A stretch of DNA of 64,000 nucleotides from Yoonia ponticola. GTDB taxonomy: Bacteria > Pseudomonadota > Alphaproteobacteria > Rhodobacterales > Rhodobacteraceae. Shown here in pieces: positions 39,968 through 42,570 of this stretch. A program made the translations under genes and the position numbers. Within the stretch, counting starts at the first letter, position 1; every line of letters starts with the position of its first letter. The stretch spans positions 248,001-312,000 of the forward strand of contig NZ_JACIJM010000001.1 of assembly GCF_014199395.1 (NCBI RefSeq), in the 5' to 3' direction. Under the pieces are notes generated by a model. The model was not told the origin of the DNA. It ran no database searches and was given only the letters and a program-made list of their open reading frames with translations.

Positions 39968-41566
39968 TTAGCCGATAGCGGCTGCTTTGACGTCCGCGTC
40001 GATGTACGGCACGTATTTTTCAAAGTTATCGCTGAACATGCCGACAAGTTTTGTGGCCTGCGCGTCGTATGCGTCTTTGTCGGCCCATGTGTCGCGTGGG
40101 TTGAGCAAGGTTGCGTCAACACCGTCGCATGTCATTGGTACTTCAAAGCCAAAGTTGGCGTCTTTGCGGAATTGGTTTTCGACCAGTGATCCGTCAAGGG
40201 CGGCGGCGAGCAAGGCGCGTGTCGCTTTGATCGGCATCCGTGAGCCGGTGCCGTAAGCGCCGCCAGTCCAGCCTGTGTTGACCAACCAGCACGTCGCACC
40301 ATGTGTTGCGATCTTTTGTTGCAGCAGTTTGCCGTAAGCTTCTGGGCGACGTGGCATGAATGGCGCGCCGAAGCAGGTCGAGAATGTTGGCTCTGGCTCT
40401 GTCACGCCGCGCTCTGTGCCGGCAACTTTGGATGTGAAACCGGACAAGAAGTGGTACATCGCTTGTGCTGGTGTCAGGCGTGAAATCGGAGGCAGGACGC
40501 CGAACGCATCACATGTTAGCATGATGATGTTTTTCGGGTGGCCACCAAGTGCCGTTTCAGATGCGTTGCCGATGTAGTTCAGCGGGTAAGCGCAGCGCAT
40601 GTTTGCGGTCAGGCTGTCGTCGTTGAAATCCAGCTCTTTGGTCTCTGGATCGAACACCATGTTCTCGATAACCGTGTGCGGCATAGAACATGTGGCGTAG
40701 ATTTCTGGCTCTGCTTCGGGATCAAGGCCGATGGTCTTGGCGTAGCAGCCGCCTTCAAAGTTGAATGTACCACGATCAGACCAGCCATGTTCGTCATCTC
40801 CGATCAACACGCGGGTTGGATCAGCGGACAGCGTGGTTTTGCCCGTGCCGGACAAGCCAAAGAAGACAGCCGTATCAACAGGGTTATTCGGCGCATGGTT
40901 GGCAGAGCAGTGCATCGGCATGATGCCTTTTTCTGGCAACAGGTAGTTCAGCAGTGTAAAGACGGATTTCTTGTTCTCGCCCGCGTATTCTGTACCGCCG
41001 ATCAAGATGACCTTCTTTTCAAAGTTCAGCGCGATCACCGTTTCAGAACGGCAACCATGCTTTTCGGGGTCCGCTTTGAATGTCGGGCAGTTGATGATCG
41101 TGAAATCAGGCGCGAATGTCGCAAGTTCTGACGCTTCAGGGCGACGCAGCAGGTGGCGGATGAACAGCGCATGCCAGCTCAACTCGGTTATCACGCGCAC
41201 GTCGAGACGGTGAGCGGGGTCGGCGCCGCCGAACAAATCCTGCACGTCAACACGGCCACCTTTCATGTGCTCCAGCATATCAGCGTAAAGCACATCAAAT
41301 TTGGCAACATCCATCGGCGGGTTATTTTCCCACCAGATCGTGTCTTCAACAGACGGCGTGCGGACAACAAATTTGTCTTTCGGGGACCGACCTGTGTGCT
41401 TGCCAGTTGTGACAAGAAACGTCCCGCCTTGGCCTTCGACACCTTCGCCTGCGGCGATAGCGGCGGCCTGTAGGTCAGCCTCGTTGCGGTTGTAATACAC
41501 ATAACCCAGCCCAGTGATGCCTTGATCTTCAAGTTTCATCTGCGGGTTGACCGTACCTTGGTCCAT
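39968..41566 (-). CDS. pckA: Phosphoenolpyruvate carboxykinase (ATP)
   Basis: 532 residues. P-loop [14 protein letters not shown], the metal-binding [12 protein letters not shown] and [12 protein letters not shown] substrate region are intact. It makes phosphoenolpyruvate from oxaloacetate for gluconeogenesis. ATG 41566 follows AAGGAG. Three GTTAGC-type operators and a CATAAT -10 element lie upstream, so expression is probably switched by carbon source. Divergent from chvI. Confidence 0.97.
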
Positions 41567-41623
41567 GGGTTCGCTCCTTTTGGCGTTCAGGGTCATCTTG
41601 ACCTAAAACTGTCATAACAGTGG

Positions 41624-41652
41624 ATTATGCTTGGACTAGCCCCCTTGCGCTA
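41624..41652 (-). promoter_or_regulatory. Candidate pckA promoter overlapping the operator array
   Basis: Minus-strand CATAAT (41624-41629), 17-base spacer, and a poor -35 hexamer TAGCGC (41647-41652) that lies inside the first palindrome. Start would be about 50 bases before the pckA ATG. Confidence 0.4.
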
Positions 41653-41706
41653 ACGTTAGCGCTACCAATTTTATGTTAGCGCAAGCACATTGCTGTTAGC
41701 GCTAAC
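41647..41706. promoter_or_regulatory. Array of three GTTAGCGC operators at exact 20-base spacing
   Basis: GTTAGCGCTACC (41655), GTTAGCGCAAGC (41675) and the perfect palindrome GTTAGCGCTAAC (41695) begin exactly 20 bases apart, on the same helix face. The first is also half of a perfect 16-base palindrome at 41647-41662. The form is that of LacI/GalR-family operators; S. meliloti pckA is known to be controlled by such a regulator (PckR). No regulator gene of this family is in the window. Confidence 0.65.
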
Positions 41707-41868
41707 CTTCGCTCGGAGGTTAATCAGACCGTAACCGGAATTGAGGCAAATAAGGCACGACTTTGTCACTGATTCGTTGAATGGCTTGATTCGTTGGGTC
41801 AAACAGGTGAAAGATTCCTGACAGAAGTGGGCAAAACCAACAAATAGAGCAGTAAGGGGCAAATCCCA

Positions 41869-42570
41869 ATGTCAAGAATCGCCTTGGTCGATGATGACCG
41901 TAATATCCTGACCTCCGTCTCGATGACGCTCGAAGCTGAAGGCTTTGAAGTTGAGACATACAACGACGGTCAATCCGCACTGGATGGATTTAACAAGCGT
42001 ATGCCAGATATGGCTGTGCTGGATATCAAAATGCCACGCATGGACGGGATGGATCTACTCCAACGTCTGCGTCAGAAAACATCGATGCCGGTCATTTTCC
42101 TAACCTCCAAAGACGACGAAATCGACGAAGTTCTTGGCCTGCGTATGGGTGCGGATGACTACGTTAAGAAACCATTCTCGCAGCGTCTGTTGGTTGCACG
42201 TATTCGCGCGTTGTTGCGTCGTCAGGATGCAATTTCCGGCGAAGAAGTCGAGGAAACCGAAGACACCAAAGTCATGGTGCGCGGCGAATTGTCGATGGAC
42301 CCGCTACGTCACGCGGTAACATGGAAGGGCCAAGACGTGTCCCTGACAGTGACCGAATTCCTGCTGCTGCAAGCACTCGCACAGCGTCCTGGTTTCGTGA
42401 AATCACGCGATCAGTTGATGGATGTAGCCTACGACGATCAGGTTTACGTGGATGACCGGACAATCGACAGCCACATCAAACGCCTGCGGAAAAAGATGCG
42501 CAACACCGATGATACGTTCTCAGCGATTGAGACGCTCTACGGTATCGGGTATCGTTACAACGAAGAATAA
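41869..42570 (+). CDS. chvI: Response regulator ChvI
   Basis: 233 residues, OmpR/PhoB class. Acidic pocket DDD (8-10), phospho-acceptor Asp52 ([11 protein letters not shown]), Lys in the [15 protein letters not shown] block, then a winged-helix DNA-binding domain (about 135-230, GIGYRYNEE end). Partner of ChvG; in relatives the pair governs envelope and acid response, exopolysaccharide and central carbon genes. Only 11 bases before the kinase start. Confidence 0.95.

Follow-up and report, generated by a model that had tools for sequence, protein, structure and literature searches.

The window, a 64-kb stretch of DNA, carries pckA on the minus strand at positions 39968 to 41566; its product matches the model for ATP-type PEP carboxykinase, NF006822, above the cutoff (E value of 1.1e-281). 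The divergent neighbor, on the plus strand at 41869 to 42570, is a chvI-type response regulator gene, and the gene after it matches the ChvG model with an E value of 2.3e-107, below the cutoff of that model. We refer to the window's own genome as G000 and to a close sister genome as G084. The intergenic region splits into two elements, with a set of operators that goes with pckA and a different repeat that goes with chvI.

A first-pass annotation of this DNA had reported the 8-mer GTTAGCGC three times at exact 20-base steps upstream of pckA, the first copy lying within a perfect 16-base palindrome, and both observations were borne out. On the plus strand of the 64-kb window, GTTAGCGC starts at 41655, 41675, and 41695; two further copies lie on the minus strand, at 41647 to 41654 and 41699 to 41706, and all five copies in the window fall inside 60 bases. 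The number of copies is a weak signal alone (5 found versus 2.02 expected, with 5 of 100 shuffles reaching 5), and when the window was shuffled 300 times at the mononucleotide level, no triple at exact 20-base steps arose; the stepping is beyond chance. The perfect 16-bp palindrome, GCGCTAACGTTAGCGC, spans 41647 to 41662.

The operator unit is better taken as the 12-bp palindrome GTTAGCGCTAAC than as the 8-mer, and copies of it are centered at 41660.5, 41680.5, and 41700.5. The proximal operator, O1 (41655 to 41666), reads GGTAGCGCTAAC on the minus strand, with one mismatch, and its center is 94 bp before the pckA start. O2 (41675 to 41686) reads GCTTGCGCTAAC on the minus strand, with two mismatches; it lies 20 bp upstream of O1 and is the counterpart of the distal site in the conserved operator pair described below. 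O3 (41695 to 41706, unstranded) is a perfect copy a further 20 bp upstream of O2, and it is a lineage-specific addition: within the genus sample, G000 and G084 alone have it, and the 12 other members do not. A poor inverted copy centered at 41648.5, O0 (41643 to 41654, unstranded), has three mismatches and abuts O1, and the 16-bp palindrome is the product of the abutting O1 and O0. Three operators in 20-bp steps were also found in two genomes of another genus, g25 (G123 and G176).

Conservation was examined in 140 pckA upstream regions from 86 genera of Rhodobacterales, drawn from 195 genomes with PckA; 60 of the regions were returned by a locus search, and 80 were picked for the remaining genera plus extras. 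One genome, G156, gave no PckA match, and one upstream region, L133, comprises only 542 bases. Distances are measured to where the PckA match begins, taken as the predicted start. In 134 of the 140 upstream regions and 80 of the 86 genera, the 300 nt before the pckA start include an operator with at most two mismatches; as a control, no operator was present in 400 nt of chvI coding sequence (127 loci) or of pckA coding sequence (60 loci). An operator pair spaced by 19 to 22 bp was found in 110 of the 140, compared with a shuffle expectation of 0.000, the shuffles treating related genomes as independent; a search restricted to spacings of 19 to 23 bp gave 117 pairs. The sampled genomes are kin, and these counts overstate independence.

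The operators are held at a near-constant distance from a second conserved element. The motif TGNTA starts 35 to 37 nt after the operator in 121 of the 140 upstream regions (74 of 86 genera), with a background rate of 0.0058, and we read it as a putative extended −10-like element. The offset between operator and TGNTA has a standard deviation (SD) of 0.43 across the 121 genomes; the same operators lie 84 to 207 nt from the pckA start (SD, 26.3) and 129 to 312 nt from chvI (SD, 21.9; n = 110). The spacing of two helical turns pointed out in the annotation is conserved as well, with a second operator 19 to 22 bp upstream in 101 of the 121 genomes with this geometry; for 70 of the 101, the spacing was counted as exactly 20. 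A transcription start about 7 nt past the −10 would center the pair near −57 and −77. An activator that touches RNA polymerase would need its operator tied this closely to the promoter, and the near-fixed distance to the apparent promoter suggests that the regulator switches pckA on.

Six of the 140 upstream regions lack an operator at two or fewer mismatches, and three of these (L150, L156, and L163) have three-mismatch pairs at 20 to 21 bp; another 13 have an operator without the geometry, six of them from genus g36. A named collection of 80 loci was also examined, 20 of which were taken as Rhodobacterales; for two of these (L214 and L222), the assignment came from PckA identity rather than from the name of the record. 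Two of the 20 lack 400 nt of upstream sequence. The operator was found in 17 of the other 18, and the offset is the same in 16 of the 17; the exceptions are L230, without an operator, and L219, with an operator but without the geometry. One locus of the collection, L227, is not independent of G016 (L096) in the main sample.

The annotation had assigned pckA a promoter with CATAAT as its −10. The hexamer does read on the minus strand, at 41629 to 41624, and it is probably not the pckA −10: no genome with the conserved geometry other than G000 and G084 has it, and the conserved element aligns instead with TGTTATGAC, a putative extended −10 of pckA at 41611 to 41619 on the minus strand. TGTTATGAC lies 10 bases beyond CATAAT, at an offset of 35 from O1, within the 35 to 37 nt at which the element is present in 121 of the 140 genomes. 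CATAAT might still be used in the window, because the −10 hexamer of TGTTATGAC is poor there and a scan with the promoter consensus found no promoter. A start near 41604 would put the operator centers near −44 (O0), −56 (O1), −76 (O2), and −96 (O3).

A search of the whole G000 genome for GTTAGCGCTAAC gave 3 exact and 11 one-mismatch places. Eleven of these 14 stand before central-carbon genes: pckA (two), zwf, edd, eno, two gap genes, fba, sucC, a fructokinase-like pfkB gene, and pyk. The annotation had expected such a search to bring up Entner-Doudoroff, gap, and pyk genes, and zwf, edd, both gap genes, and pyk indeed carry the site. Of the remaining three places, one falls within an O-antigen-ligase-type gene, one lies 3′ of a gap gene, and one precedes an AhpC/TSA-family gene; at the last, GGTAGCGCTAAC is centered 24 bp before the gene (L014:1501-1512), possibly marking a new regulon member or a chance match. 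Raw counts of GTTAGCGCTAAC showed no enrichment, either in G000 at up to two mismatches (93, versus 478 for the reversed pattern) or in G084 at up to one mismatch (15 versus 47). The position of the site differs among the targets. One operator is centered 25 to 49 bp before the start codon of zwf, edd, eno, gap2, the pfkB kinase gene, and pyk, an arrangement that would fit a dimer blocking transcription; at fba, gap1, and sucC, the operators are further out, at 93, 130, and 144 bp before the start, respectively. At fba and gap1, operators 13 bp apart (L010:1501-1525 and L007:1469-1554) resemble the O1/O0 doublet.

The pckA sites are most likely operators of CceR/GapR, a known LacI-family regulator of central metabolism in Rhodobacterales. 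We take GapR and CceR to be one protein, the works on both being cited in PMC5507952. The sites were filed under CceR/GapR because the regulon targets match the published ones; those of G000 overlap the GapR list of Ravcheev 2014 (PMC4052901). CceR is described as sensing gluconate-6P and controlling central carbon genes in Rhodobacteraceae (PMC5507952), and in Paracoccus denitrificans as a repressor of glycolytic and an activator of gluconeogenic enzymes (PMC11323563). The operator is taken here as a 12-bp palindrome; the GapR/CceR motif is published as a 20-bp palindrome.

Three LacI-family proteins of G000 score above the Pfam cutoff. The annotation had proposed that one LacI-family protein binds the sites, and a candidate gene for it supports this: the candidate cceR, at G000:C5:3627-4649, lies elsewhere in the genome from pckA, and all but three of the 196 genomes sampled from the order (193, with G000 counted) have a relative at an E value of 1e-60 or lower. 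Its product matches a solved LacI-family chain, 3kjx_A (2.8e-167); its top models are GntR-type (291.2 bits versus a cutoff of 400). It is a CceR/GapR candidate by the match of targets and family.

In keeping with the assignment, G141 lacks both a CceR relative (E value of 1e-8 or lower) and a pckA operator. The operator and the candidate regulator do not always go together, however: CceR relatives are present in G011 (58% identical) and G110 (49%), yet neither genome has a pckA operator. Operators stand before pckA and next to edd and gap in G018, where the closest LacI relative shows just 33% identity. This genome (L117, L198, and L209) has no recognizable CceR gene, and its pckA reads in two frames; an assembly fault or a replacement of the regulator could account for the oddity. 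Autoregulation of cceR was considered and is not general, a two-mismatch site being found upstream of the gene in 3 of 30 close relatives. Among cceR upstream regions, L190 has no site and L191 and L192 have two each; in the genome of L191, a gap gene stands opposite the cceR relative.

We consider it likely that these are CceR/GapR operators and that a phased pair of them activates pckA from upstream of its promoter. CceR binding, the pckA start point, activation, and cooperativity are all things that we infer from the arrangement of the sequence. At low levels of 6-phosphogluconate, such as those expected during growth on gluconeogenic substrates, CceR would sit as dimers on the two in-phase operators upstream of the pckA promoter, and bound CceR would help RNA polymerase to start pckA. 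Sugar catabolism would raise 6-phosphogluconate, so that CceR leaves and pckA expression falls; the same release would let the Entner-Doudoroff and lower glycolytic genes, repressed from their single near-start sites, come on. The effector in this scheme is taken from PMC5507952, and the activator and repressor roles from the work on Paracoccus (PMC11323563). In the lineage of the window, the perfect O3 and the weak inverted O0 should raise occupancy. More tentatively, and with considerably less confidence, the operator pair and its near-fixed distance to the extended −10 might serve throughout the order as a module for activation, with LacI-family dimers side by side touching RNA polymerase. 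Individual lineages might then tune pckA by gaining either whole operators in 20-bp steps, as in this window and, separately, in G123 and G176, or inverted operators that abut existing ones, and the response of pckA would change from graded to steep.

Most LacI-family proteins repress, and CceR might likewise repress pckA in this lineage, or both repress and activate it, with O0 beside O1 placing a dimer over the −35 region of a promoter that newly uses CATAAT as its −10. O0 and CATAAT do co-occur, in G000 and G084. Against this, TGTTATGAC is still found at an offset of 35, O0 is the weakest of the sites, with its three mismatches, and the conserved operator arrangement stands upstream of the promoter; we regard repression of pckA as unlikely, and activation by CceR from the phased pair as the better account.

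The annotation also suggested that chvI may share control through these sites, which would couple the ChvGI-PTS operon to carbon state. The sites do lie in an intergenic region common to both genes, and chvI is divergent from pckA in 127 of the 140 loci. The evidence for shared control did not hold up on closer comparison. In G083, the one genome found with pckA and chvI at separate places, the pair has stayed with pckA, at a spacing of 20 and an offset of 36, and another gene stands opposite; chvI has a single three-mismatch site, at −463, in its 700 nt of upstream sequence, and the GATTCG repeats, at −91 and −73, have stayed with chvI. Of the 60 loci outside Rhodobacterales, a chvI-type gene is divergent from pckA in 39, and the operator is present at none. 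The operator-to-chvI distance is also variable, as its SD of 21.9 shows. In genus g6, chvI is missing from 10 of 10 genomes (E value of 1e-100 or lower; L081, L088, L094, L095, L099, L104, and L171 to L174), and all 10 retain the operator, 9 of them with the geometry. In most g6 loci, the genes opposite pckA look by eye like hprK and rapZ. Because these hprK/rapZ-like genes of the same operon still stand there, g6 excludes chvI itself only, and their presence is in keeping with a link to the operon. Taking both sides together, control of chvI by the pckA operators seems very improbable.

The repeat that goes with chvI is of a different kind. In the window, two GATTCG repeats lie 17 bp apart before chvI (41771 to 41793). 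CGAATC is present in 114 of the 127 loci with chvI, mostly 60 to 95 bp before the chvI start, and in two or more copies, usually 18 bp apart, in 42 of them; the repeat is perhaps a ChvI box. In Brucella abortus, the ChvI relative BvrR is reported to bind between bvrR and pckA (PMC9491525), and for this reason ChvI may control pckA by sites other than the CceR operators.

Of the other LacI-family proteins of G000, L017 and L018 are both full length and could in principle bind the sites, which we find barely credible, since they share just 21% and 27% identity, respectively, with the CceR candidate, carry the recognition helices VSLTTVSR and VSRSAVSR (VSEMTVSR in the candidate), and adjoin transporter genes, by eye, as local regulators do.

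The proposed CceR/GapR activation of pckA has a counterpart in the PckR regulon of Rhizobiales, and the annotation had named a PckR orthologue as the binder. This was not sustained: the Rhodobacteraceae GapR is reported not to be orthologous to PckR and to have a different motif (Ravcheev 2014, PMC4052901), and GTTAGCGCTAAC, at up to two mismatches, is present in none of the 60 pckA upstream regions outside Rhodobacterales. A PckR orthologue as the binder is rejected on the motif comparison made here and on the published non-orthology. The two systems are alike in that PckR (SMc02975 in Sinorhizobium meliloti) is a dual LacI-family regulator predicted to activate pckA (PMC4052901), and a motif based on CGATT(T/A)A is likewise repeated before pckA in Rhizobiales. 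Two copies exactly 30 bp apart were found within 300 nt upstream of pckA in 10 of 10 Rhizobiales loci (L232, L234, L235, L239, L240, L242, L243, L245, L246, and L282), L246 having an extra copy between them; these are probably PckR operators and another phased pair.

We conclude that the pckA upstream region holds a real, conserved operator set, most likely for a regulator known in the order and with pckA already a predicted target. LacI-family proteins have mostly been studied as repressors, and an operator within about one base of a fixed −10 distance in 74 of 86 genera offers a concrete, testable model of activation by this family. The system matches the GapR/CceR regulon (PMC4052901) in having a LacI-family regulator in nearly every sampled genome of the order and in its targets, which are pckA, zwf, edd, eno, gap, fba, pyk, and a gene of fructokinase type. 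The covered portions of the GapR/CceR literature made no mention of the phased pair, the −10 distance, or the extra operators, and a literature search of partial coverage did not turn up a description of operator spacing at pckA; relative to that literature these three features appear new, which is not a claim that they are unpublished.

Two further LacI-family regulators serve as functional analogues only, as the CceR candidate scores below the cutoffs of both models (83.7 versus 385 bits for Cra and 144.1 versus 442 bits for CcpA). Cra/FruR of Escherichia coli represses some genes and activates others from upstream of the −35 element (PMC4052901), and CcpA of Bacillus subtilis activates ackA, pta, and ilvB from sites upstream of −35 (PMC3463425). 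According to the latter report, CcpA sites upstream of −35 activate and those over the promoter repress, with an effect that depends on the face of the helix. The placement of operators in G000 would follow the same rule, with those of pckA upstream of the putative promoter and the single ones of zwf, edd, eno, gap2, the pfkB kinase gene, and pyk near the start codons.
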